Assembly: GCA_030066135.1 (NCBI GenBank)
Contig: JASJCD010000003.1
Span: 1-39,324, forward strand
Direction: 5' to 3'
Source: Desulfobacterales bacterium
GTDB lineage: Bacteria; Desulfobacterota; Desulfobacteria; Desulfobacterales; UBA5852
Length of the DNA stretch: 39,324 nt
The position numbers and the translations under genes were made by a program. How positions within the stretch are numbered: position 1 is the first letter of the stretch; every line of letters starts with the position of its first letter. Shown piece by piece: positions 21,855 to 39,324 of this stretch. The notes under the pieces are model-generated. The model ran no database searches. It was not told the DNA's origin and worked only from the letters and a program-made list of their open reading frames with translations.

Positions 21855-22712
21855 CTATACAAGGGGGTTCAGGGGGCCGTCGCCAAGACCCAGTTCGGTC
21901 GCCGGTAACCCCATGGCCCGGCCCAACAGCTGGATATAGAGGATCGCCGGCAGATCAGAACGGTCGAGTGGTTCAGCATCCGGGTTGTCATCGGCGGCGC
22001 CGAACTGCATCTGGCAATAGGTGCAGGCCGTGGCCAGCACCTGGGCACCGGCCTGGCGGGCATCCTCGGTTTTGCGCTGCATGAGCCGGCGCGCCAGGCG
22101 ATCGTTTTTACCCCTCAAGGGGTAGCCGCAGCATTCCAGACGCAGCGGCCAGTCAACGGCGCTGGCCCCGGTGACCGCCACGAGGTTTTCAAACAGGGTT
22201 GGTGCCAGGGGGTTGTCAAACTGCATCACATGGCCGGGGCGCAGGGCATGACAGCCATAGTGGGCGGCGACGTCGAGACCCGCAAGCGGCTGCCGGATGG
22301 CGGGCCGGATCGCTTCCAGACCGATTTCCACGGCCAGCACCTGGAGCAGATGGTAAATCCCAACTGCCGCCGACCAAACCAGTCCCTCCGCCTTCAGGAC
22401 GCCATTGACGTAACAGGCCAGGTCTTCCCGCTGGCGCAGCCAGTAGTCTGCATGCCTTAGCTGACCATAGCAGCATTGGCAGGGGGTCATCAGATCGAGC
22501 CCCTCCCGGGCGGCCAGCGCCAGATTGCGGGCGGCCGCCAGCACGGATGCGGCCAGGTCCTGATCGCGCACGGGGTAACCACAGCAGTTCAGTTCGCAAT
22601 CCACCAGCTCAACACCCAGGGCCGCCGTTACGGCACGCGTGGCCCGGTCGTAATCGGGAAGAAACGGACCCATTTTACAGCCGGGAAAATAAAGATAGCG
22701 CAGCCTTTTCAT
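21855..22712 (-). CDS. HdrB-like protein with two cysteine-rich (CCG) domains
   Basis: CCG-type patterns FPGCKMGPF...DCELNCCGYPV...TPCQCCYGQL and HYGCHALRP...RLECCGYPLRG...ATACTYCQMQF; start overlaps the stop of the upstream gene, implying translational coupling. Confidence 0.88.
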   Translation of the reverse strand: MKRLRYLYFPGCKMGPFLPDYDRATRAVTAALGVELVDCELNCCGYPVRDQDLAASVLAAARNLALAAREGLDLMTPCQCCYGQLRHADYWLRQREDLACYVNGVLKAEGLVWSAAVGIYHLLQVLAVEIGLEAIRPAIRQPLAGLDVAAHYGCHALRPGHVMQFDNPLAPTLFENLVAVTGASAVDWPLRLECCGYPLRGKNDRLARRLMQRKTEDARQAGAQVLATACTYCQMQFGAADDNPDAEPLDRSDLPAILYIQLLGRAMGLPATELGLGDGPLNPLV

Positions 22713-22713
22713 T

Positions 22714-24411
22714 TCATGCCTTTGAGACGATTTCATCCGGCGCACCCAACGGGTAGTCTGGCTTTAGCCGCTGGTGGGCCTCGTTGCGCAGCTCATAGAG
22801 AATATCGGCCACTCTGACCCCCTGGGGGCAGTGCTCCTGGCATTGGTAGCAGGTCGCACAATCCCAGACCATGCGGGCGCCCAAAGCCAACTCCCGGAGC
22901 TGAAGCCGCATCATGTTCATGACCTGCTGGGGGGTCAGATCCAGATCCCGGCGGGGATCGTCGCTCACCGCGACCACCGGGCATACGCTGGTACAGGTGG
23001 TGCACTGGACACAGGACCAGAAGGTCTCCGGGTTTGCGGAGAGGTCTAATGTGGCCGGCGCGCCGGCGGCCTTGGCTGACGCGGATGGTATCGTTGCGGC
23101 CCGCGCAGCCCACTGAGCCGGTCGATGCGACCGGATCCATCCATGGGCCGACGGATAACCCTTCTGAACCAGTTCGCGCTGCGAGGCGCGCCACAAATCC
23201 TGCAAATCGATGCCGGAAGGACACCATTGTGTGCAGCGGCCGCAGGCGGTGCAGATGAAGCTGCCTTCGGCCAGGGAGACGCACTGGGTTCCGGTAGCCC
23301 CGGATATCCAGCGCATCAGGGCGCCGAGTTTTTCAGACGGCAGGATGGCAGGGTTGGGAATGGCGCGGTAGATGACAGCCACGGCGCAGTGCTGGTTGCA
23401 GACGCCGCAATGGGTGCAGGCGTCCAGTCCCATGGCGCGCCGCACCGGGCGCAGGCCGGCATCGGCATCCGCCGCCGTGCCCCCGGCGCGTACCAGCAGA
23501 GACAGGGGGGTGGCCACCAGATGAAAAAATTTCGTGAAGGGCAGCAGGGCCAACCCCAGACAGGAGACCAGGAAATGAAGATGCCAAAGGAGCGTATCGA
23601 AATTTGCTTTTTCCAGCGCGTTGGCCAGCGGTTTCATCAGACGTGACAGCGGGTAGGACAAAAGGGCGGACTGGGGGCCGTCATGGCAGGCGGCGCAGAA
23701 ATCCGCATGCAGGTCCCGCCCGAGCGCCAATGTGTCTGCACCGGTCTTCGGCGGTGCCGTTGTCGCGGCGCCGAATTCGGCCTGCCAGTAAGCCTGAAGG
23801 GCTTCGAACTCGGCGTCATCTTCAATAAACGCATATTCTGCGACCATGGTACGAAACATCTCCGGCGAGACGATCTGGTGGCTTTCAAGCAGGATGCCGG
23901 AGAAAACGATGATCGCCAGAAGCGCCAGGGCGAGCTGATCGGCCATATGCCGGGTAGCCCGCAGCAAGGGGTCCGAGCGCCGCCGCAGGGCGGCGAAAGC
24001 AACCCCCAGAAGGATCAGGGCCGCTGCCAGATTGCGTAGCAGCCGCCAGGGGTTGAGGGTGGGGGCATAGTCCCCCCAAAGCCGGGCGCTGGTAAATTCA
24101 TCCAGGGCGTGAAAGATAACCAGAAAAAAGAACCCATAGAACAGCCCCAGGTGCATGATGCCACGCCGCCAGTCCTGCCGCAGGACATGGCCTTGAAGCA
24201 GCACTTCCCAAACGAGCGCTTTGGCGAGACGGGTAACGCGCGGGCCGAAGACGGCCCGGCCGACCGCCCTTGCCGTCTGGGACCAGAGGCCGGTGAGCGT
24301 TGGCGGCTGGCATTCGGCACCGATGGGAAGGCGGAACCAGCGCCCGATACGCCACAGGGTCCCAATCAGCCCGATACCCAGGGCGCTGTATGCGATAAAA
24401 GTGGTGTCCAT
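22714..24411 (-). CDS. HdrC/HdrE-like membrane Fe-S protein: NarI/DsrM-like cytochrome b domain, CxxCH motif, then four ferredoxin-type cluster motifs
   Basis: About five hydrophobic helices with conserved-type His (MHLGLFYGFFFLVIFHALDEF, LLWHLHFLVSC...KFFHLVATPL); FCAACHDG; CTHCGVCNQHC, CTACGRCTQWCP, CVQCTTCTSVCP, CATCYQCQEHCP. Confidence 0.87.
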   Translation of the reverse strand: MDTTFIAYSALGIGLIGTLWRIGRWFRLPIGAECQPPTLTGLWSQTARAVGRAVFGPRVTRLAKALVWEVLLQGHVLRQDWRRGIMHLGLFYGFFFLVIFHALDEFTSARLWGDYAPTLNPWRLLRNLAAALILLGVAFAALRRRSDPLLRATRHMADQLALALLAIIVFSGILLESHQIVSPEMFRTMVAEYAFIEDDAEFEALQAYWQAEFGAATTAPPKTGADTLALGRDLHADFCAACHDGPQSALLSYPLSRLMKPLANALEKANFDTLLWHLHFLVSCLGLALLPFTKFFHLVATPLSLLVRAGGTAADADAGLRPVRRAMGLDACTHCGVCNQHCAVAVIYRAIPNPAILPSEKLGALMRWISGATGTQCVSLAEGSFICTACGRCTQWCPSGIDLQDLWRASQRELVQKGYPSAHGWIRSHRPAQWAARAATIPSASAKAAGAPATLDLSANPETFWSCVQCTTCTSVCPVVAVSDDPRRDLDLTPQQVMNMMRLQLRELALGARMVWDCATCYQCQEHCPQGVRVADILYELRNEAHQRLKPDYPLGAPDEIVSKA

Positions 24412-24417
24412 TCCGAT

Positions 24418-25698
24418 TCAGCCCAAGAGCCGTTCACATGCGCGAACGGCAGCGTATGCGCTGCCAATGGCCAGTCCGCTGCCGCTTTTTTCCCGAACCC
24501 AGTCCTGATGGGCCAGTATCGAGCCGGCTGCAAAAAGGCGGGCATATACCCGCCGTCCGTTCACGTCCACGGGGCGGAAGCAGTCATCCACGGCCAGTCC
24601 GGCGCGATTGATGGCGTGTCCCGCGGGATGCAACAGATCCTTGTGGTGCCATTCATCCCGTTGCGGCGGTTGATCGACGGGCAGGTCAAACAGTGTTTCC
24701 CGGATCGCGGTGCGGTCGGCGTGCAGGCCTTTGCCAAAAAAGCGGCCGGTGGCCAGGATGACGGCCTGGGTGCGGGCCCGGAATCCATCGGCATCGCGGC
24801 CGATGCCGATCCGGAATTCATTTGCGCGGCGGGCCTCTACCGCCGTAACGCGATGCTGATACCAGGCACGCACGCCGAGCCGTGGCAAGTGCTGTTCAAA
24901 GGTTTCGCGCAGCCGCAGGCCGGGGACACTGGGCAGCAGGGTCGGGATTTCAAACAAAGGTACCCCCAGGATTTGCTGCATCGCCTCAAAATTGGGCCGC
25001 GTGCGATGCACGCCGACGACGGCCGGCAGACCCACGGCACGGGCACCATCCAGCCGGCGGTGGATGGTGGCCGCTATTTGGCGGCAGTGTTCACCGTTTT
25101 CCAGGAACCGGCCCAGCCGTTCCGGCTGCAGTTCCCCCTGCATCCGGGGTACTGCCAGGCGCACCGCGCGCAAATCAGGCCAGCTTGCTCCCAGTGTGGC
25201 GGCGATCTGCCGGGCACTGAAACCTTTTAGGCCGGCAAAATCGACCAGCAGGCAGGGCGGTCGCCGCACAAGGGCATCGTCGGCGGCCGCCATTGTGTGG
25301 GGAACGGCGTAGGTGGTCTTAACCGTACCCACCGGTGTAATGACCTGCATGTTGCGCTCGGCCTGCGATACATAGGGTTGACCGGCTTCGGCCAGAAATC
25401 CCAGGCACTGGCGCCAGGCCGCTTGCATGTCCTGGTTGCCGATGCGTGTATATGGGTGCGCGGGAGACACCCGGCGCAGACGGGCCATCCCTTCCCAGGG
25501 ATCGGTCAAGATCTGGCCCGCGGGCACCGGATACACACCGAGAAGATCCAGAAGTCCGCTGGCAAAAGGGATCGTGCCCCCGAGCCCCACCTGAACGGTA
25601 TCGATGCCGCGGCGGGCGGCAAATAGGCTGGCCGCCATACCGGCCATGCCCGCGCCGATGACGAGCAGCTGGCAGGTGATATCACGATGTTTCGACAT
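24418..25698 (-). CDS. glpB: anaerobic glycerol-3-phosphate dehydrogenase subunit B
   Basis: N-terminal QLLVIGAGMAGMAASLFAARRG (FAD fold); GLLDLLGVYPV; C-terminal LFAAGSILAHQDWVREKSGSGLAIGSAYAA typical of GlpB; overlaps the glpA 3' end. Confidence 0.9.
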   Translation of the reverse strand: MSKHRDITCQLLVIGAGMAGMAASLFAARRGIDTVQVGLGGTIPFASGLLDLLGVYPVPAGQILTDPWEGMARLRRVSPAHPYTRIGNQDMQAAWRQCLGFLAEAGQPYVSQAERNMQVITPVGTVKTTYAVPHTMAAADDALVRRPPCLLVDFAGLKGFSARQIAATLGASWPDLRAVRLAVPRMQGELQPERLGRFLENGEHCRQIAATIHRRLDGARAVGLPAVVGVHRTRPNFEAMQQILGVPLFEIPTLLPSVPGLRLRETFEQHLPRLGVRAWYQHRVTAVEARRANEFRIGIGRDADGFRARTQAVILATGRFFGKGLHADRTAIRETLFDLPVDQPPQRDEWHHKDLLHPAGHAINRAGLAVDDCFRPVDVNGRRVYARLFAAGSILAHQDWVREKSGSGLAIGSAYAAVRACERLLG

Positions 25699-27307
25699 GC
25701 TGGATTTCCACGGCCGGGCCGCCGCGGCCGCACGCTCTGTCCGCTGATGAGGACGGCGTGAGTTCAAGGCCGAACACGCCGCAATGGGTGGCTTCCAGGA
25801 GTTCCGCCTGGGCCAGCGAAATATCCCAAAGCAACGGTTCCTGCCCCCGCCAGCGTTCCTTTAGAAAGGCCTGTAATTCGAAGATGCCCCGATCGGCGTG
25901 CCAAACCCCCTGGTCGTAAAGGTAAGCGGCCACCCGTTGGCTGCAAAAAGTCCCCTGGCAAGGGCCCTTGCCGATACGGCTGCGCAGTCCAATGGCTTTG
26001 AGGCCGGGCGTGTCACCGTGGTCATTGAGGGTTTGAACCAGGTCGTCGACCACGGCCTGCGGCACCATTTCACATTCGCACAGCAGAAGATCGTCGGGCC
26101 GTCCCCGCTCCATCCATGTTCGCGGTGCAAGGCCGGGTTCGGTCCAGCGGGCCGCCACCATATTGGGCAGGGGTTCGGTGCGCGTGCGGCAGGGCGCCGT
26201 GCTGCCAAGCAGGCGGCAGACCAGATCGGCCGTCTTTTCGGCCATCAGGCGGTAGGTGGTGAGCTTGCCGCCGGTGATGGTGATGAGGTTTTCGACAATG
26301 TCGGCCTCGCCCCGGCCATGATCGATGAGGGCGAACCCGCGGCTGACGCTGCGGTCGTCGCAGGCGTCCTCGCAGCTGACCAGCGGCCGCACGCCGCAAT
26401 AGGCGCGGATATAGCGGGTGCTGGCCAGAACCGGCACCATGGCGGCGCCCTGTTCGATGATGTGGTCCACTTCATGGATTTTGGGGTAGATGACATCTGG
26501 TGACGCACTACGCTCGGAGGTGGTTCCCAAGATGGAAACCGTGCCGCCCGGCACCAGGATGTCCCCGTCAGTGGGTGGTCGCAGGCGGTTGATGACGCGG
26601 CGGCTGATGCGCTCGCTGGTCACCAGCAGGCTGCCCTTGGAATACACCATTGGGATCCGGGCGCCTGCCAGGGCGGCCACCTCGCCCGCCCAGGCCCCGG
26701 AGGCGTTTACCACCACATCGGCTTCGATGGTCGTTTTTTCACCTGTGGTTTGGTTTTTGACGGTGACCCTGCGAATGCGATGGTTAGCGAGGTCGAATCC
26801 AACCACGGCGGTAAAACGCAACAATCGGGCACCGTGCGCCTCGGCATGGGCCATATTGTCAAGCGAGAGTTTAAATGGGTCGATGGTGGCGTCTTCCACC
26901 TGATAGGCGGCGATCAACCGGTTGGACAGGGTGGGCTCCATTTCCCGGGCGATTTCCTTGTCCAGCATCTGGACGGGAATGCCACTGCGGGCACAAATTC
27001 CGGGAAAATCGGCGATATAGTTTTCTTCATCACCGGCAACGGCCACGAAGAGTCCGCCCGTGTCCTCGATGCAGTGGGGGGCCAGTTGCTTGAGCAATTC
27101 GCCCTCGGCACGGCACTCGGTGGCGGCGGCTGGATCCGAGGCGACATACCGGGCGCCGCTGTGGAGCAGGCCGTGGTTACCGCCTGAAGCCCCGGCGTTG
27201 ATATCTTTCTTTTCGATCACGGTGCAGGCAATGCCGCGCAGGGCCAGATCGCGCGCCAGACCGGTGCCGGTTACACCGCCGCCGATGATGAGAACCTCTG
27301 TCTTCAT
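25682..27307 (-). CDS. glpA: anaerobic glycerol-3-phosphate dehydrogenase subunit A (FAD-dependent, BFD-like C-terminus)
   Basis: KTEVLIIGGGVTGTGLARDLALRGIACTVIEKKDINAGASGGNHGLLHSGARYV; BFD-like LLCECEMVPQAVVDDLV...RIGKGPCQGTFCSQRV. A GTG start at 27319 is also possible. Confidence 0.94.
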   Translation of the reverse strand: MKTEVLIIGGGVTGTGLARDLALRGIACTVIEKKDINAGASGGNHGLLHSGARYVASDPAAATECRAEGELLKQLAPHCIEDTGGLFVAVAGDEENYIADFPGICARSGIPVQMLDKEIAREMEPTLSNRLIAAYQVEDATIDPFKLSLDNMAHAEAHGARLLRFTAVVGFDLANHRIRRVTVKNQTTGEKTTIEADVVVNASGAWAGEVAALAGARIPMVYSKGSLLVTSERISRRVINRLRPPTDGDILVPGGTVSILGTTSERSASPDVIYPKIHEVDHIIEQGAAMVPVLASTRYIRAYCGVRPLVSCEDACDDRSVSRGFALIDHGRGEADIVENLITITGGKLTTYRLMAEKTADLVCRLLGSTAPCRTRTEPLPNMVAARWTEPGLAPRTWMERGRPDDLLLCECEMVPQAVVDDLVQTLNDHGDTPGLKAIGLRSRIGKGPCQGTFCSQRVAAYLYDQGVWHADRGIFELQAFLKERWRGQEPLLWDISLAQAELLEATHCGVFGLELTPSSSADRACGRGGPAVEIQHVETS

Positions 27308-27367
27308 TGAAAGTTTCACGGTAAACCCTCAATTGCGGCATCAGGGTAAAAGTTGGAAGCTATTCAA

Positions 27368-27397
27368 CATTTTATTTTCACTTGCGAAAATAAAATG
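27368..27397. promoter_or_regulatory. candidate GlpR operator upstream of the glpA operon
   Basis: Perfect 12-bp inverted repeat CATTTTATTTTC-ACTTGC-GAAAATAAAATG; core TTTTCACTTGCGAAAA is nearly identical to the site at 28490-28505. Confidence 0.65.
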
Positions 27398-27552: not shown

Positions 27553-28452
27553 ATGCCCAGGTTAAGATGCAGGTGGTGGCCAATGGCTGAAAGCCGGTGG
27601 GAAGATCGCAGACAGGAAAACGGAGAGTCGTCTTCAACCATGGCCGGCGCCAAGACCGGCCCCGTGCGCGATCGGCATGAAAAAATCAGACAGCGGGTCA
27701 ACGCCAAGGGCTTTGTCACCATCGAGCAGCTGGCGGCGGAATTCGGGGTTACGCCCCAGACGATTCGGCGCGACATCAACCTGCTCAGCCAGGAAGGCAG
27801 TATTCATCGCTACCATGGCGGTGCAGGGGTTTCAGCCAGCACCGAAAATGTGGCTTACACCCAGCGCAAGGTGTTGTGCTTGAGTGAAAAACAGCAGATC
27901 GCCCAGATGGTGGCGGCGCAGATCCCGGACCATGCATCACTGTTCATCAACATTGGCACGACCACCGAGGAAATTGCCAAATGCCTTGGCGATCACGACC
28001 GGCTGCGGGTCATCACCAACAGTCTCAACGTGGCATCGATTATGGCCGGCAACGAGAACTTTGAAGTCATTGTGGCCGGTGGCCTGGTCCGGCCTCGGGA
28101 CGGCGGTATTGTCGGTCCGCTGACGATTGACTTTATCCAGCAGTTTCGGGTGGATTTCGGCATCATCGGCATCAGCGGAATTGATCTGGACGGCACCCTG
28201 CTCGACTTTGACTACCGTGAGGTGCGTGCGGCCCGGGCCATCATCGACAATTCGCGCAAGGTCTTTCTGGCGGCGGACCATACCAAATTCGGGCGCAATG
28301 CCATGGTCCGACTGGGCAGCATCGGTGAAATCGATGCCCTTTTTACGGATTTACCGCCCGTGGAATCGGTCATGGAAGCCCTGAGCGCCTCCGAAGTAAC
28401 GTTGCATGTGGCCGCCGAGGCACCGCACGGAGGCAATGATCGGCCGAAATAA
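27553..28452 (+). CDS. glpR: DeoR-family transcriptional regulator, probable glycerol-3-phosphate regulon repressor
   Basis: HEKIRQRVNAKGFVTIEQLAAEFGVTPQTIRRDINLLSQEGSIHRYHGGA (DeoR HTH); LFINIGTTTEEIAKCL; located between the glpAB and glpSTPQV operons. Start uncertain (27583 or 27640 possible). Confidence 0.9.
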   Translation: MPRLRCRWWPMAESRWEDRRQENGESSSTMAGAKTGPVRDRHEKIRQRVNAKGFVTIEQLAAEFGVTPQTIRRDINLLSQEGSIHRYHGGAGVSASTENVAYTQRKVLCLSEKQQIAQMVAAQIPDHASLFINIGTTTEEIAKCLGDHDRLRVITNSLNVASIMAGNENFEVIVAGGLVRPRDGGIVGPLTIDFIQQFRVDFGIIGISGIDLDGTLLDFDYREVRAARAIIDNSRKVFLAADHTKFGRNAMVRLGSIGEIDALFTDLPPVESVMEALSASEVTLHVAAEAPHGGNDRPK

Positions 28453-28489: not shown

Positions 28490-28505
28490 TTTTCGCTTGC
28501 GAAAA
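28490..28505. promoter_or_regulatory. candidate GlpR operator upstream of glpS
   Basis: Perfect palindrome TTTTCGC-TT-GCGAAAA; overlaps a possible -35 TTGCGA (28497-28502) spaced 17 nt from TATGCG (28520-28525). Confidence 0.6.
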
Positions 28506-28619: not shown

Positions 28620-29720
28620 ATGGGGCTGGTGCTTGAGAAGGTTGACAAGGTTGTCAGCGGTGAAACACATCTTAGCGGCATCAATCTTGAGTTCCCGGCC
28701 GGTTCCCGCAATGTGCTCCTGGGACGCACGCTCGCCGGTAAAACCTCGCTGCTGCGCATCCTGGCCGGTCTGGACAAGCCCACCCGGGGACGCATCCTCA
28801 TCGATGGGCGTGACGTCACCGGCGTCTCGGTGCGCAAGCGCAGCGTGGCGATGGTCTACCAGCTCTTTATCAACTACCCCTCGCTAACGGTCTACGACAA
28901 CATTGCCTCACCGCTCAAGACCAGCGGCATTGCCAAATCCGAAATCGATCGTCAGGTGCGCGAGATCGCCGCAATGCTGCGGATCGACGATCTGTTGGAC
29001 CGGCTGCCGGCTGAATTGTCCGGCGGTCAGCAGCAGCGGACCGCCATTGCGCGGGCCATGGTCAAGAACGCCGAACTGTTGCTGATGGACGAGCCGCTGG
29101 TCAACCTGGACTATAAGCTCCGGGAAGAGCTGCGGGTCGAGCTTCAGGAAATCTTCGCCCAGCGCAAGGCCATCGTCGTCTACACCACCACCGAGCCGAC
29201 CGAAGCCCTGATGCTGGGCGGCAACATCACCGTCCTCGACGAGGGCCGCATTCTGCAGACGGGTGCCACCCATGAGACTTACCGCAATCCGGCCACCGTC
29301 AAGGTGGCGGAAGTATTCAGTGATCCCCCGATCAATTTCCTGCGCGGCCGTATCCAGGGGGCAAAGGCACGTATCGGCGAGGGAATCCAGGTCCCGCTGA
29401 ATGGTGCCATGCAGTCCCTGGGAGACGGCGAGTATGACTTCGGCATCCGCTCCAACCATTTTTTTCTGGCGCGCACGGGAGAGAACGACTGCCAGGTCGA
29501 GGCACAGGTGGAACTGGCCGAAATCAACGGCTCCGAAACCTTTATTCACTTCCACCACGGCGATGCCCGGCTCGTGGCCCAGGAAGACGGTATCTATCCC
29601 CATCGGATTGGTTCGGCCATCACCCTCTATGTCAACCCGCGCTGTCTATTTGTCTTCGATTTGAAGGGCAACCTGGTTGCCGCTCCTGCCCTTGACAGCA
29701 TTCACGAACGGTCCGCTTAG
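28620..29720 (+). CDS. glpS: glycerol ABC transporter ATP-binding protein GlpS-like
   Basis: Walker A GRTLAGKTS, signature LSGGQQQR, Walker B LLLMDEP; context with the two permeases, second ATPase and large SBP matches the glpSTPQV layout. Confidence 0.88.
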   Translation: MGLVLEKVDKVVSGETHLSGINLEFPAGSRNVLLGRTLAGKTSLLRILAGLDKPTRGRILIDGRDVTGVSVRKRSVAMVYQLFINYPSLTVYDNIASPLKTSGIAKSEIDRQVREIAAMLRIDDLLDRLPAELSGGQQQRTAIARAMVKNAELLLMDEPLVNLDYKLREELRVELQEIFAQRKAIVVYTTTEPTEALMLGGNITVLDEGRILQTGATHETYRNPATVKVAEVFSDPPINFLRGRIQGAKARIGEGIQVPLNGAMQSLGDGEYDFGIRSNHFFLARTGENDCQVEAQVELAEINGSETFIHFHHGDARLVAQEDGIYPHRIGSAITLYVNPRCLFVFDLKGNLVAAPALDSIHERSA

Positions 29721-29729
29721 GAAACCGCC

Positions 29730-30815
29730 ATGGCGCGCATCGAACTCAATGAAATTGCCCACAGTTATCGCCCCAAACCGGCGAGCGAATCGGATTTTGC
29801 CCTGAAGCGCATCCACCACATGTGGGAGGATGGCGGTGCCTATGCCCTGCTGGGACCGTCGGGTTGCGGGAAGACCACCTTGCTGAACATCATTTCGGGC
29901 CTGCTGACGCCCACCCGCGGCAAGATTTTATACGACGGCGAGGACGTCACCGACCTGCCGCCGGAAAAACGCAACATCGCCCAGGTTTTCCAGTTCCCGG
30001 TCCTCTACGACACCATGACGGTCTTCGACAACCTGGCCTTCCCCCTGCGGAATCGGGGACATGACAGCGCCGATGTCGACCGCCGCGTCCACGAGGTCGC
30101 CGAAATTCTGGAATTGACCCCCTATCTTAAAAAGCGGGCCGCCGGACTGGCGGCCGATGCCAAGCAGAAAATATCCCTGGGCCGGGGGCTGGTGCGCAGC
30201 GATGTGGCCGCCATTCTTTTCGATGAACCCCTGACGGTCATCGACCCCCATCTCAAATGGAACCTGCGGCGCAAACTCAAGGATATTCATGAACAGCTCA
30301 AACTGACCTTTGTCTATGTGACCCACGACCAGGTGGAGGCCCTCACATTCGCCGATAAAGTCGTCGTCATGTACGAGGGCGAAATCGTACAGATCGGCTC
30401 ACCCCAGGATCTCTTTGAAAATCCGGAGCATACTTTCGTCGGATATTTCATCGGCAGCCCCGGCATGAATTTTTTAGACTGCACGCTGGAGGGCGATGTG
30501 GCACGTTGCAATGGTGCCCGCATCAGGATCGACGATGCCGTGGCGGCAAAGGGGCGTGGCATTCAGGGCAAACTGGAACTCGGTATTCGGCCGATGCACC
30601 TTAAATTGTCGAGCGAGGCGGTTGAGGGCGGCGTACCGGCCGATGTCAGGGGGATCGAAGACCAGGGCAGCTGCCGGATCGTCAAGGTCGCCCTGGCAGG
30701 CAAAACCTTGCGGGCCCGGCTGCCTGAGGGCGCATCCATTCCCGAAGGCCAGGCCTGGCTTGTTTTTCCCCCGGCGTGGACCCGGCTGTTTGCCGACGGA
30801 CGACTGGTGAAATAG
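29730..30815 (+). CDS. glycerol ABC transporter ATP-binding protein GlpT-like
   Basis: Walker A GPSGCGKTT, Walker B AILFDEP, H-loop VTHD; degenerate signature LAADAKQKISLGRGLVR. Symbol left blank because E. coli glpT denotes the unrelated G3P antiporter. Confidence 0.88.
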   Translation: MARIELNEIAHSYRPKPASESDFALKRIHHMWEDGGAYALLGPSGCGKTTLLNIISGLLTPTRGKILYDGEDVTDLPPEKRNIAQVFQFPVLYDTMTVFDNLAFPLRNRGHDSADVDRRVHEVAEILELTPYLKKRAAGLAADAKQKISLGRGLVRSDVAAILFDEPLTVIDPHLKWNLRRKLKDIHEQLKLTFVYVTHDQVEALTFADKVVVMYEGEIVQIGSPQDLFENPEHTFVGYFIGSPGMNFLDCTLEGDVARCNGARIRIDDAVAAKGRGIQGKLELGIRPMHLKLSSEAVEGGVPADVRGIEDQGSCRIVKVALAGKTLRARLPEGASIPEGQAWLVFPPAWTRLFADGRLVK

Positions 30816-31012
30816 TGTCCATCCGGAAATGGTAGATTTTGGTTCAGGCGCCCGCTTTGCGGCGGGATTTCACATCGATATTTTATCGACGGTCGGTGTT
30901 CAACCAACCGCAGCGATTTTGAAACCACAGGCCTAGTGGCGCCACGTCGAGGATTTCAAATGAGCGAGAACGCCGGCCGGGGCCGAAAGATGCCTTTTAA
31001 GGATGGGCACTA
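30813..31012. mobile_element. candidate 200-bp MITE-like element between glpT-like and glpP-like genes
   Basis: Imperfect terminal inverted repeats TAGTGTCCATCCGGAAA (30813-30829) and TTTAAGGATGGGCACTA (30996-31012), 14/17 complementary; outermost TA on both sides; no ORF inside. Confidence 0.5.
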
Positions 31013-31029
31013 AGCAGTAAGGAGCGGCT

Positions 31030-31911
31030 ATGGAAAAATGGGAAGACAACAAGGCCTGGTTTCTGGTGCTGCCGGCCTTTGTCATTGTCGCCTTCAGCGG
31101 GATCATCCCGTTGATGACCGTGGTCAATTATTCCCTCCAGGACATCTTTGGTCCGGGCCAGGCGGTTTTTGTCGGCACCGAGTGGTTTAAAGAGATGTTG
31201 AGCAACCACCGTTTGCACGACGCGCTGTGGCGCCAGTTCATATTCTCCGGGCTCGTCCTGCTGATCGAGATACCCCTCGGGATCATCATCGCCCTGGCCA
31301 TGCCCAAGCGTGGCTGGGGGGTCTCGGCATCGCTGGTCATTCTGGCGTTGCCCCTGGTCATTCCATGGAATGTGATCGGTACCATCTGGATCATCTTCAC
31401 CCGGCCGGACATCGGCCTGTTCGGTGTGGGCATCAACAGCCTGGATTTGCTGGAGGTGCCCTTCGATCACACGGCCAAACCGATCTATGCATGGATTACG
31501 CTGCTGGCCATGGAGGTCTGGCACTGGACGCCCCTGGTGGCCCTGCTGGCCTATGCCGGGCTGCGGGCCATCCCCGAGGCCTATTATCAGGCGGCCAAAA
31601 TCGACGGCGCCTCGCCCTGGGCCACATTCGTGTATATCCAACTGCCCAAAATGCGCGGTGTGCTGACCATCGCCGTATTGCTGCGCTGGATGGACAGCTT
31701 TCTGATCTACGCCGAACCGTTCGCCCTCACCGGCGGCGGGCCGGGCAATACTACCACCTTCCTGTCGATTTATCTGGTCAAACTGGCCACCATGCAGTTC
31801 GACCTCGGACCGGCGGCGGCTTTTTCCATCATTTATTTTCTGATTGTGCTGCTCTTCAGTTTCGCATTCTATCAGGCCCTGCTGAACGTCGGCCGGGGAG
31901 ACAAGGCATGA
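31030..31911 (+). CDS. glycerol ABC transporter permease GlpP-like
   Basis: Multi-TM MalF-type permease; EAYYQAAKIDGASPWATFVYIQLPKMRGVLTIAVLLR (EAA loop). Confidence 0.87.
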   Translation: MEKWEDNKAWFLVLPAFVIVAFSGIIPLMTVVNYSLQDIFGPGQAVFVGTEWFKEMLSNHRLHDALWRQFIFSGLVLLIEIPLGIIIALAMPKRGWGVSASLVILALPLVIPWNVIGTIWIIFTRPDIGLFGVGINSLDLLEVPFDHTAKPIYAWITLLAMEVWHWTPLVALLAYAGLRAIPEAYYQAAKIDGASPWATFVYIQLPKMRGVLTIAVLLRWMDSFLIYAEPFALTGGGPGNTTTFLSIYLVKLATMQFDLGPAAAFSIIYFLIVLLFSFAFYQALLNVGRGDKA

Positions 31912-32711
31912 AAATCCAGAAACGCACCATTGCGCTGTGTCTTTATTTCGGCATTCTCATTCTTCCGATCTACTGGATGCTCAACATGTCGCTCAGGACC
32001 AATGCCGACATCCTGGGCAATTTCGCCCTTTACCCGGCTGATATCACTTTTCGCAATTATATCAAGATCTTCACAGATCCGACCTGGTATACGGCTTATA
32101 TCAACGCCATCCTCTACGTCAGCATGAATACGGTGATGTCACTGGCCTTTGCCCTGCCGGCGGCCTATGCGTTTTCACGCTATAAATTCATCGGCGACGG
32201 GCAGATGTTTTTCTGGCTGCTGACCAACCGCATGGCCCCCCCGGCGGTCTTTCTGCTGCCTTATCTTCAACTTTATTCGACCTTCAACCTGATGGACACG
32301 CATATTGCGGTGGCTTTGGCCCATTGCCTGTTCAACGTACCCCTGTCCGTCTGGATCCTGGAAGGTTTCATGTCCGGGGTCCCCAAGGAAATCGACGAGA
32401 CGGCCTTTATCGACGGATACAGCTTCCCACGGTTTTTTCTCACCATCTTTATTCCGCTGATTCGCGCCGGGGTCGGTGTGACCGCCTTCTTCTGTTTCAT
32501 GTTCAGCTGGGTCGAACTGCTTTTCGCCCGCACCCTGACAATCACCGAGGCCAAACCGATCGTGGCCACCATGACCCGTACGATCAGTGCCACGGGTCTG
32601 GACTGGGGCCTGCTGGCCGCCGCCGGCGTGCTCACCATCGTGCCGGGCGGTCTGGTGATCTGGTTTGTACGCAACCACCTGGCCAAGGGTTTCGCCCTGG
32701 GCCGCGTTTAA
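31908..32711 (+). CDS. glycerol ABC transporter permease GlpQ-like
   Basis: Starts MKIQKRTIALCLYFGILILPIYWML with ATGA overlap; EIDETAFIDGYSFPRFFLTIFIPLIRAGV (EAA loop). Symbol blank because E. coli glpQ is a phosphodiesterase. Confidence 0.88.
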   Translation: MKIQKRTIALCLYFGILILPIYWMLNMSLRTNADILGNFALYPADITFRNYIKIFTDPTWYTAYINAILYVSMNTVMSLAFALPAAYAFSRYKFIGDGQMFFWLLTNRMAPPAVFLLPYLQLYSTFNLMDTHIAVALAHCLFNVPLSVWILEGFMSGVPKEIDETAFIDGYSFPRFFLTIFIPLIRAGVGVTAFFCFMFSWVELLFARTLTITEAKPIVATMTRTISATGLDWGLLAAAGVLTIVPGGLVIWFVRNHLAKGFALGRV

Positions 32712-32723
32712 AAGGGAATAGCG

Positions 32724-33002
32724 ATGGGTCTCGAATGGATGTACTGGACCAAGCCGACGGCGATCTTTTTCTCGAGTATCTTCCTGATGCTCTGCGGCAT
32801 GCTGATCTGGGAGCTGGTCTCCCCAACCATCGAGCGCCGCGGTTTCCTGATGATCCCGACGACACGCGGAACGCGTTTTTTTCTGGGGCTTCTGGGAAGC
32901 GCCTATATCCATCTGGCTTGGCTGGGGCTCACCGATCTGTTGCTGTGGTATGGAACGGCACTCTCGGTGGCCTGGATTATCATCGTCATGCGCTGGGGGT
33001 AG
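32724..33002 (+). CDS. small membrane protein of the glycerol transport operon (DUF2160-like)
   Basis: 92 aa MGLEWMYWTKPTAIFFSSIFLMLCGMLIWELVSPTIERRGFL...; hydrophobic; position between permease and SBP. Confidence 0.8.
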   Translation: MGLEWMYWTKPTAIFFSSIFLMLCGMLIWELVSPTIERRGFLMIPTTRGTRFFLGLLGSAYIHLAWLGLTDLLLWYGTALSVAWIIIVMRWG

Positions 33003-33139
33003 CCGCCATTTCTCCCCAGGGCCATGCCCTGCCGCCGGTCTGGCCGCCAGGGCGCATTGTAATTATCGCCACCACGACCTGATGTGTGCGGGCGGTAAGA
33101 CTTTCAGCTACCATCACAACAATCGGAGAGGAGGAAACG

Positions 33140-34897
33140 ATGCGACATTTGACCAACCGACGGTTCTGGTGCCGATCCATTCCCATATGGATCGTTTCCT
33201 TGGCATTCATTTTTTGCGGCAGCGCTGTATGGGCATCGAGCCATGGGGCCCAAATGAAAGCGGCCCAAAAATGGGTCGACGAAGAGTTTCAGCCCTCGAC
33301 CCTGAGTAAAAAAGAACAGATGAAGGAAATGGAATGGTTCATCAAAGCCGCCCAGCCCTTCAAGGGGATGAACATCAAGGTCGTGTCCGAAACCATCCCC
33401 ACACACGAATATGAAGCCAAGGTGCTGGCTAAAGCCTTCGAAGAGATCACCGGAATCAAAGTGTCGTTCGACCTGATCCAGGAAGGCGACGTGATTGAAA
33501 AACTCCAGTCCCAGTGGGCTTCAGGGGAAAATCTCTACGATGCCTACATCAACGATTCGGATCTTATCGGCACCCACATGCGCTATGGTCATGTGGTTCC
33601 GCTGACGGATTTTATGAAGGGTGAGGGCAAGGACGTGACCCTGCCCACCCTGGATGTCGATGATTTCATGGGCAAATCCTTTACCACCGGCCCGGATGGC
33701 AAGCTCTATCAGCTGCCCGACCAGCAGTTTGCCAACCTCTACTGGTTCCGCTACGACTGGTTCAACCGGGCGGATTTCAAAAAGAAATTCAAGGAGATCT
33801 ACGGTTACGAACTGGGTGTGCCGGTCAACTGGTCGGCCTACGAGGACATTGCCGAATTCTTCAGTGAACACATCGGCGAAGTCGACGGCAAGGCCATCTA
33901 CGGCCACAATGACTACGGCAAGAAAGCCCCGGATCTGGGCTGGCGCTTTACCGATGCCTGGCTCTCCATGGCCGGCGCCGGCGACAAGGGTATTCCCAAC
34001 GGTGTCCCGGTGGACGAATGGGGAATTCGGGTCGAAGGCTGCCGTCCGGTGGGCGCCAGTGTGGAGCGCGGCGGTGCCGCCAATGGCCCGGCCGCCAAGT
34101 ATGCCCTGCGCAAGTACATGGAGTGGCTGCGCAAATACGCCCCTCCGGGCTCTCTGGGGATGGATTTCTACACCTACCTGCCGGTGCTGGCCAAGGGGCA
34201 TGTGGCCCAGCAGATTTTCTGGTATACGGCCTTCACTTCGGACATGGTCAAGCCGGGCCCGACCGTCAACGCCGACGGCACCCCCAAATGGCGGATGGCC
34301 CCCTCCCCCCATGGCCCCTACTGGGAGGAAGGCATGAAGCTGGGATACCAGGACTGCGGTTCCTGGACCCTGATGAAGAGCACCCCGCTCGAACGCCGTA
34401 AGGCCGCCTGGCTCTTTGCCCAGTTCTGTGTGGCCAAGACCACTTCGCTCAAGAAAACCCACGTGGGCCTTACGCCGATCCGTGACAGTGATATCCGGCA
34501 CGAATCCTTTACCGAGCGGGCACCCAAGCTCGGCGGGCTGGTGGAATTCTACCGCAGCCCGGCCCGTGTGGCCTGGACTCCCACCGGCACGAACGTGCCC
34601 GACTACCCCAAGCTGGCCCAACTGTGGTGGCAGAATATCGGTGAGGCGGTTTCCGGTGAAGTGACCGTGAGCCGGGCCATGGACAACCTGGCGCGCGAGC
34701 AGGATCGGGTGCTGCAACGCATCCAGCGCGCGGGCGTTCAGGGCGAGTGCGGCCCCAAATTGAACGCCAAGAAAGACCCCGAATACTGGCTGAGCCAGCC
34801 CGGCTCACCCAAGGCCAAGGTCAACGAAAAGCCCAAGGGTGAAACGGTCGACTACGACGGGCTGATTCAGGCCTGGCGGGAAGGACGTGTAAAATAG
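33140..34897 (+). CDS. glpV: extracellular solute-binding protein, GlpV-like
   Basis: N-terminal signal-like segment; GMNIKVVSETIPTHEYEAKVLAKAFEEITGIKVSFDLIQEGDVIEKLQSQ; GAGGAGG RBS; last gene of the transport operon. Confidence 0.88.
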   Translation: MRHLTNRRFWCRSIPIWIVSLAFIFCGSAVWASSHGAQMKAAQKWVDEEFQPSTLSKKEQMKEMEWFIKAAQPFKGMNIKVVSETIPTHEYEAKVLAKAFEEITGIKVSFDLIQEGDVIEKLQSQWASGENLYDAYINDSDLIGTHMRYGHVVPLTDFMKGEGKDVTLPTLDVDDFMGKSFTTGPDGKLYQLPDQQFANLYWFRYDWFNRADFKKKFKEIYGYELGVPVNWSAYEDIAEFFSEHIGEVDGKAIYGHNDYGKKAPDLGWRFTDAWLSMAGAGDKGIPNGVPVDEWGIRVEGCRPVGASVERGGAANGPAAKYALRKYMEWLRKYAPPGSLGMDFYTYLPVLAKGHVAQQIFWYTAFTSDMVKPGPTVNADGTPKWRMAPSPHGPYWEEGMKLGYQDCGSWTLMKSTPLERRKAAWLFAQFCVAKTTSLKKTHVGLTPIRDSDIRHESFTERAPKLGGLVEFYRSPARVAWTPTGTNVPDYPKLAQLWWQNIGEAVSGEVTVSRAMDNLAREQDRVLQRIQRAGVQGECGPKLNAKKDPEYWLSQPGSPKAKVNEKPKGETVDYDGLIQAWREGRVK

Positions 34898-38596: not shown

Positions 38597-39324
38597 ATGG
38601 CAAAACACGCAACGCCTTTGTTGGACCAGCTTGAGTCCGGGCCTTGGCCAAGCTTTGTGTCCGACATGAAGCAGCAGGCTGAAGTTCGCGCCAAAAACGC
38701 GGAAAACATTGAATTCCAGATTCCGCAAGATGTCGTGGAAGACCTGCTGGGGATCTTGGAACTTTCCTTTGCTGACGGCACCACCCACTGGAAGCACGGC
38801 GGTATCGTCGGCGTTTTCGGTTACGGTGGCGGCGTTATCGGTCGTTATTGCGACCAACCCGAAACTTTTCCGGGGGTTGCCCATTTCCACACCATGCGTG
38901 TGGCCCAGCCGGGCGCCAAATTCTACAAGACCGATTTTCTGCGCCAGCTCTGCGACCTGTGGGATTTCCGCGGCAGCGGGATCACCAACATGCACGGCTC
39001 CACCGGTGACATCATCCTGCTGGGTACCACTACCCCCCAGCTGGAAGAAATTTTCTACGAGCTGACCCACAACATGAACCAGGACCTGGGCGGCTCCGGC
39101 TCCAACCTGCGGACCCCGGCTGACTGTATCGGTATGGCCCGCTGCGAATACGCCTGTTACGACACCAATGAACTCTGCTACACGCTGACTCAGGAATACC
39201 AGGACGAACTCCATCGTCCGGCCTTTCCCTACAAGTTCAAGTTCAAGTTCGACGGCTGCCCCAACGGTTGCGTGGCCTCCATCGCCCGGGCCGACATGTC
39301 CTTCATCGGCACCTGGAAAGACAA
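38597..39324 (+). CDS. dsrA: dissimilatory sulfite reductase alpha subunit, 5' part (runs off window)
   Basis: [29 protein letters not shown]...[26 protein letters not shown]...[26 protein letters not shown]...[35 protein letters not shown]. Confidence 0.97.

Follow-up and report, generated by a model that had tools for sequence, protein, structure and literature searches.

In the classical anaerobic glycerol-3-phosphate (G3P) dehydrogenase GlpABC, the third subunit, GlpC (b2243 in Escherichia coli), is a single chain without a membrane cytochrome domain that is encoded after glpAB, carries a [4Fe-4S] pair and two CCG domains, and is presumed to serve as anchor and electron exit. A link between glpAB and membrane proteins resembling heterodisulfide reductase (Hdr) is also on record: the 2009 genome paper of the sulfate reducer Desulfobacterium autotrophicum placed the membrane genes hdrF1 and hdrF2 beside glpAB and hdrF3 beside etfAB, and its authors proposed that G3P electrons pass to the quinone pool or to Hdr (PMC2702500). 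Here we analyze a stretch of 39,324 nucleotides (the window; contig JASJCD010000003.1, positions 1 to 39,324) from the draft genome of a Desulfobacterales bacterium (3.98 Mb in 344 contigs, about 80% complete), in which glpA and glpB are followed by a third and a fourth operon gene, named P0003 (a 565-residue membrane subunit) and P0004 (an HdrB-like subunit), that encode an Hdr/NarI-type module in place of GlpC.

Three other described systems frame the comparison. EtfD/EMO is one chain with a five-helix b-type membrane domain, one b heme, two cubanes and two CCG domains, and it wires electrons from electron transfer flavoprotein to menaquinone; in its structure the CCG clusters, the cubanes and heme b line up as successive carriers leading to menaquinone, and it has lost Cys81 and Cys234, the bridging cysteines that make Hdr clusters catalytic (PMC13083937). 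The archaeal HdrDE and HdrBC enzymes supply the prototypes of the cluster-bearing subunits, and in HotSeep-1 a complex that contains heme c together with a CCG domain has been noted (PMC10553843). The association of glpAB with a membrane Hdr-like protein was already known; what is added here is the split form of the module, its heme-c site, its dedicated clade and an operator shared with a neighboring operon. Among the open-access publications searched, we found no description of the split module, of a heme-c site in a NarI-like loop, or of the dedicated clade.

Results

The glpAB operon continues into a split Hdr/NarI-type module

All four genes lie on the minus strand in the order glpA, glpB, P0003 and P0004, joined by overlaps or by gaps of a few bases, which bears out the tight packing described in an earlier reading made from the DNA letters without database searches (hereafter the sequence-only reading). 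The first gene, glpA (25682-27319), encodes the catalytic subunit of anaerobic G3P dehydrogenase, a flavin adenine dinucleotide (FAD) protein that matches PF01266, scores 572.7 bits against the TIGR03377 equivalog cut-off of 552.8, and ends in a CxC...CxxxxC motif of the [2Fe-2S] type. Its start is a GTG preceded by GAGGG, whereas the sequence-only reading had placed it at the ATG at 27307. The second flavoprotein subunit, GlpB (24418-25698), begins at an ATG 17 nt within glpA and exceeds the cut-offs of both TIGR03378 (213.3 bits; cut-off 174.15) and NF003725 (522 bits; cut-off 345). P0003 (22714-24411) follows after 6 nt. The longest frame of P0004 spans 21855-22745, with candidate starts at 22745, 22736 and 22712; the ATG at 22736 or 22712 is likely, and the choice of start codon places the beginning of P0004 slightly upstream or downstream of the P0003 stop codon.

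P0003 joins a NarI-like cytochrome b domain, a heme-c loop and four [4Fe-4S] motifs in one HdrE/HdrC-like chain that has both PF02665 and Fer4 dicluster matches. The membrane domain (residues 1-305; 23497-24411), supported by hydropathy peaks and loop charges, scores 34.7 bits over a threshold of 22.9 with PF02665 (Nitrate_red_gam; E = 1.8e-8), as a NarI/HdrE-type cytochrome b should. Conservation within P0003 was read from an alignment of 42 sequences, and in all 42 the histidines H87, H101, H279 and H297 are invariant; they lie on the second and last helices, where, by analogy with NarI, they would fit two b hemes held between those helices. The loop between transmembrane helices 4 and 5 carries a CAACH heme-c attachment motif (residues 239-243; 23683-23697) whose two cysteines and histidine are conserved in 42/42 sequences, as against an average conservation of 0.52 in the remaining loop columns. 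Lysine and arginine are abundant in loops 27-82 and 143-156, whereas the net charge of the CxxCH loop averages -7.3. Because these charges follow the positive-inside pattern, the loop, which qualifies as a c-type cytochrome site by its motif, is predicted to be periplasmic, and the clusters to be cytoplasmic. The sequence-only reading had recognized the NarI-like domain and the four ferredoxin-type motifs but had overlooked both the invariant CxxCH site and the four invariant histidines.

Each of the four cluster motifs has the form CxxCxxCxxxC, and as a set they are nearly invariant across the alignment. The first (C332-C342; 23386-23418) is conserved in 42/42 sequences and the second (C387-C397; 23221-23253) is intact except that C393 is replaced by glycine in 3/42. 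Motifs 3 (C467-C477; 22981-23013) and 4 (C518-C528; 22828-22860) form a C-terminal pair of the HdrC/GlpC kind, which matches the solved HdrC structures 8rvu and 5odc and the N-terminus of GlpC, in both families below the curated cut-offs.

The separate HdrB-like gene with two CCG domains (two PF02754 matches) is likewise as the sequence-only reading had it. P0004 aligns with the solved HdrB 8rvv at 2e-48, and its TIGR03288 score of 179.1 bits falls short of the HdrB equivalog cut-off of 345.15. CCG domain 1 (C23, C54, C55, C89 and C92; 22470-22679) and CCG domain 2 (C165, C205, C206, C241 and C244; 22014-22253) align with the cluster cysteines of the respective domains of the solved protein, such that all ten HdrB cluster cysteines, including both bridging ones, are kept in the alignment to 8rvv and 9sfi; no member of the glpAB-linked clade deviates from this set. 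Domain 1 also contains a family-specific third cysteine at 22470-22481 (C89-C92), giving CxCC where methanogen HdrB has CNGC, with C91 present in 39/40 sequences. Some modules that do not belong to the glpAB clade (L203, L228 and L229) have serine or threonine in place of C244, the second bridging cysteine, which suggests a partial loss of the Hdr-type catalytic site.

Compared with the archaeal enzymes, P0004 is a clear HdrB homologue and P0003 resembles HdrC in its last cluster pair, but the HdrE-like and HdrC-like parts are fused, a cluster pair and a heme-c loop are added, the partner is a G3P dehydrogenase, and the scores lie under the HdrB and HdrC curated cut-offs. EtfD/EMO shares the general layout, yet the module differs from it in being split, with the CCG domains on a separate gene, in having four cubane motifs, likely two b hemes and a c-heme site, and in retaining the full HdrB ligand set with both bridging cysteines. 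HdrF has in common with the module that a membrane Hdr-like protein is encoded with glpAB in a sulfate reducer. It was described as a single protein with transmembrane, HdrC and HdrB regions, whereas HdrB is a separate gene here and P0003 carries four cubane motifs and an invariant heme-c motif; the published description of HdrF (PMC2702500) mentions no heme-c site of this kind.

The module stands in for GlpC

Neither protein can be called GlpC. P0003 scores 52.8 bits with TIGR03379 (cut-off 279.9) and 67.8 bits with PRK11168 (cut-off 278), and P0004 has no match to the former and 32.6 bits with the latter. A profile search of the genome, which is about 80% complete, found no GlpC over cut-off, and this counts, within that completeness, against a canonical glpC elsewhere, which, if co-expressed with glpAB, the sequence-only reading had named among the grounds that would refute it. 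The best GlpC-like match in the genome, C238, was rejected as glpC since it is a fusion of an FAD oxidase with a CCG protein. One contrast drawn in that reading had to be dropped: GlpC itself has two CCG domains, so their number in P0004 is no difference by itself. The differences from GlpC are instead the splitting of the genes, the membrane domain, the extra cluster pair and the complete cysteine set; 14/21 GlpC proteins lack one domain-1 cysteine.

Outside the order, one locus (L173:3704-5029) has glpAB followed by a 442-residue protein; this has two cluster motifs and two of the CCG type, and a BLAST search with GlpC of E. coli did not pick it up.

The glpAB-linked module forms a dedicated clade of a widely reused family

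The survey covered 146 genomes of the same order, and GlpB is present in 67 of them; gene neighborhoods were read in genome stretches, some of which end at contig ends. The window aside, the complete order glpA-glpB-P0003-P0004 recurs in 11 distinct loci, spread over two orders of the phylum: six in the same order of bacteria (L118, L124, L126, L137, L157 and L165), two in named genomes (L206 and L207; the scan with P0003 gave a third, L205, from the same genome as L165) and three in three genomes of another order (L221, L222 and L223). Three further loci have partial order: contig ends truncate L141 and L119, with glpA divergent in L119, and in L135 glpA is unrecognized beside glpB. Canonical GlpC adjoins glpAB in seven loci. 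Most of the remaining loci show no recognized electron-transfer subunit within about 3.5 kb. The operon is preceded by an ABC (ATP-binding cassette) transporter ATPase-like gene in L221 and L222 and followed by a glycerol kinase-like gene in L223.

GlpB itself splits into two main sets, one made up of rows with GlpC and the other a lineage of 65 rows, the window included, without adjacent canonical GlpC. In 51 of those 65 rows (within L111-L168), glpAB has no neighboring GlpC or Hdr-type subunit, and glpK, another gene or an ABC transporter is often next. Three loci (L129:5003-6217, L162:7019-8239 and L163:5401-6168) have a second, shorter GlpA-like protein downstream of glpAB. In L145 (3915-5332), soluble HdrC-like and HdrB-like proteins follow glpAB and there is no membrane cytochrome; this locus may represent an intermediate or a soluble variant.

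In a tree of P0003 sequences, the glpAB-linked homologues form one clade with support 99/99. L187 is the one member of this clade not linked to glpAB, which its genome carries on a different contig. Two genomes (G054 and G128) carry the glpAB-linked module together with a second module of another clade, which lies beside an HdrA-like gene and is not linked to glpAB. Given the single clade and these second, unlinked copies, the glpAB-linked version looks dedicated. P0003 relatives are nearly always paired with the same type of HdrB, and the other pairs adjoin HdrA-like, NuoEF-like or NfnA-like proteins or a molybdopterin oxidoreductase, or stand alone; their occurrence beside such varied oxidoreductases points to a reusable plug-in module. 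This wide use, like the earlier HdrF report (PMC2702500), was missed in the sequence-only reading. In five loci (L189, L191, L196, L202 and L203), the gene after the NarI/heme-c/HdrB module encodes an HdrA-like protein of about 500-950 residues, some frames being cut by the stretch, an arrangement that is possibly a membrane-linked bifurcating Hdr complex.

Proposed function and alternative readings

We think it probable, by analogy with EtfD, that the four products of the operon form a G3P dehydrogenase bound to the membrane, with a split HdrDE-type wire to menaquinone taking the place of GlpC, and the same analogy makes G3P:menaquinone oxidoreductase its most likely function. From the motifs we infer the cofactors and a direction of flow: GlpA would oxidize G3P to dihydroxyacetone phosphate (DHAP), the electrons would pass from its FAD through GlpB into the P0004 clusters, the P0003 cubanes or both, and the two b hemes would hand them to menaquinone, feeding the quinol-dependent steps of sulfate reduction. 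A c heme on the periplasmic side could serve as a second exit to, or exchange with, periplasmic c-type cytochromes. Transfer from G3P/DHAP (~-190 mV) to menaquinone (~-75 mV) is downhill.

Several observations weigh against this wire to menaquinone. No recognized electron-transfer subunit adjoins 52/84 GlpB rows, and 51 of the 52 belong to the window's own GlpB lineage, which therefore can evidently function when no module is linked. Transfer from G3P to menaquinone does not require a c heme, and a complete HdrB site exceeds the needs of a plain wire. In addition, the AlphaFold2 model of P0003, built from four sequences, has a pLDDT (predicted local distance difference test) of 36 and is unusable for judging a quinone site or complex formation. 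The EtfD analogy does not extend to the additional pair of clusters, the c-heme site or the full set of HdrB ligands, which possibly leave room for an exit to periplasmic cytochromes or for disulfide chemistry.

The second of these would make the HdrB-like subunit a working disulfide reductase, which passes electrons from G3P and/or from menaquinol or periplasmic cytochrome c to the DsrC trisulfide or a small disulfide at its two noncubane clusters. The ten intact cysteines of P0004, among them the equivalents of the Cys81 and Cys234 that EtfD has lost, speak for such a role, as do the domain-1 ligand that most of the GlpC proteins compared lack, the presence of dsrA in the organism, and the proposal that the HotSeep-1 complex feeds DsrC (PMC10553843). 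Ligand conservation alone does not demonstrate catalysis, however; the operon contains neither DsrC nor another disulfide partner, the same HdrB type is found next to very different oxidoreductases, and GlpAB requires just an acceptor, for which menaquinone is simpler. We therefore regard a reductase of this kind as unlikely. The sequence-only reading had offered menaquinone and a thiol/disulfide partner such as DsrC side by side; its observation was real, and the replacement of GlpC and the menaquinone branch, the best reading by the EtfD analogy (PMC13083937), hold up, whereas nothing ties the module to DsrC. A broader scheme, equally unlikely, would make the module a redox hub joining G3P, menaquinone, periplasmic cytochrome c by way of the heme-c loop, and a cytoplasmic disulfide at a catalytically complete HdrB, with the same hub reused by HdrA-like, molybdopterin and NADH-linked modules. 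If so, G3P oxidation would drive, or be driven by, membrane thiol/disulfide chemistry.

It is rather improbable that the module is mainly a conduit between cytoplasm and periplasm, in which G3P electrons leave by way of the b hemes, reach the c heme and enter a c3-type pool, or in which electrons travel inward. The invariant CxxCH in a predicted periplasmic loop and four helix histidines that would suit two stacked b hemes are what such a conduit calls for, but there is a single heme-c site, the second axial histidine in the loop is not invariant (H235 in 31/42), no periplasmic cytochrome gene lies in the operon, and quinone is the normal reaction partner of NarI-type proteins. That P0003 and P0004 merely sit downstream of glpAB and serve another enzyme is very improbable: relatives do occur alone or beside other oxidoreductases and most glpAB of the order lack them, but the order is kept in 11 other loci from two orders, the genes nearly overlap, the clade is dedicated, and G054 and G128 hold additional modules of another clade that are unlinked to glpAB.

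A G3P:menaquinone oxidoreductase of this build would be a second solution to how GlpAB gains access to the respiratory chain. The comparison also brings out a membrane module that is widespread, interchangeable and equipped with a heme-c site, and it shows that a large GlpAB lineage of the order has no electron-transfer subunit beside it. It further allows bacterial HdrB-like subunits outside HdrABC to be examined as plain wires or as disulfide reductases. The main points of interest are the conservation of the heme-c site and the completeness of the HdrB ligands.

Regulation and neighboring genes

Upstream of glpA, repeat and motif scans located a putative GlpR operator, TTTTCGCAAGTGAAAA (27375-27390, minus strand), which is the core of a 12-bp perfect inverted repeat. 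In 8 other loci, the region upstream of glpA contains TTTTCKCAAGNGAAAA (L165 and L205 being from the same genome). With up to two mismatches allowed and both strands scanned, the motif occurs five times in the window, against 0.21 expected. Divergent from glpA is a glpR-like gene for a DeoR regulator (27553-28452, plus strand; PF00455 and PF08220), whose NF008154 score of 320.8 bits is slightly under the cut-off of 331. A second operator copy, TTTTCGCAAGCGAAAA (28490-28505, minus strand), was found by motif scan between glpR and a transporter operon (28620-34897, plus strand) that, by profile matches, encodes an ABC transporter of the sugar/glycerol type with two ATPases, permeases and a solute-binding protein. 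Since the glp operon and the transporter have the motif in common, they fall into one putative GlpR regulon; glpK is located elsewhere in the genome. An Rfam search gave no matches, and promoter and terminator scans gave signals at background level.

The dsr locus is indeed about 11 kb away, as the sequence-only reading had pointed out. A divergent regulator, the ABC transporter and unrelated genes intervene, and we rejected the idea that it forms one unit with the glp operon, inside which there is no dsr or DsrC gene that would mark it as part of a DsrMK system. dsrA begins at 38597, 11.3 kb from glpA, and runs past the end of the window; the part inside (38597-39322) matches TIGR02064 with 366.7 bits across the first 225/402 positions.

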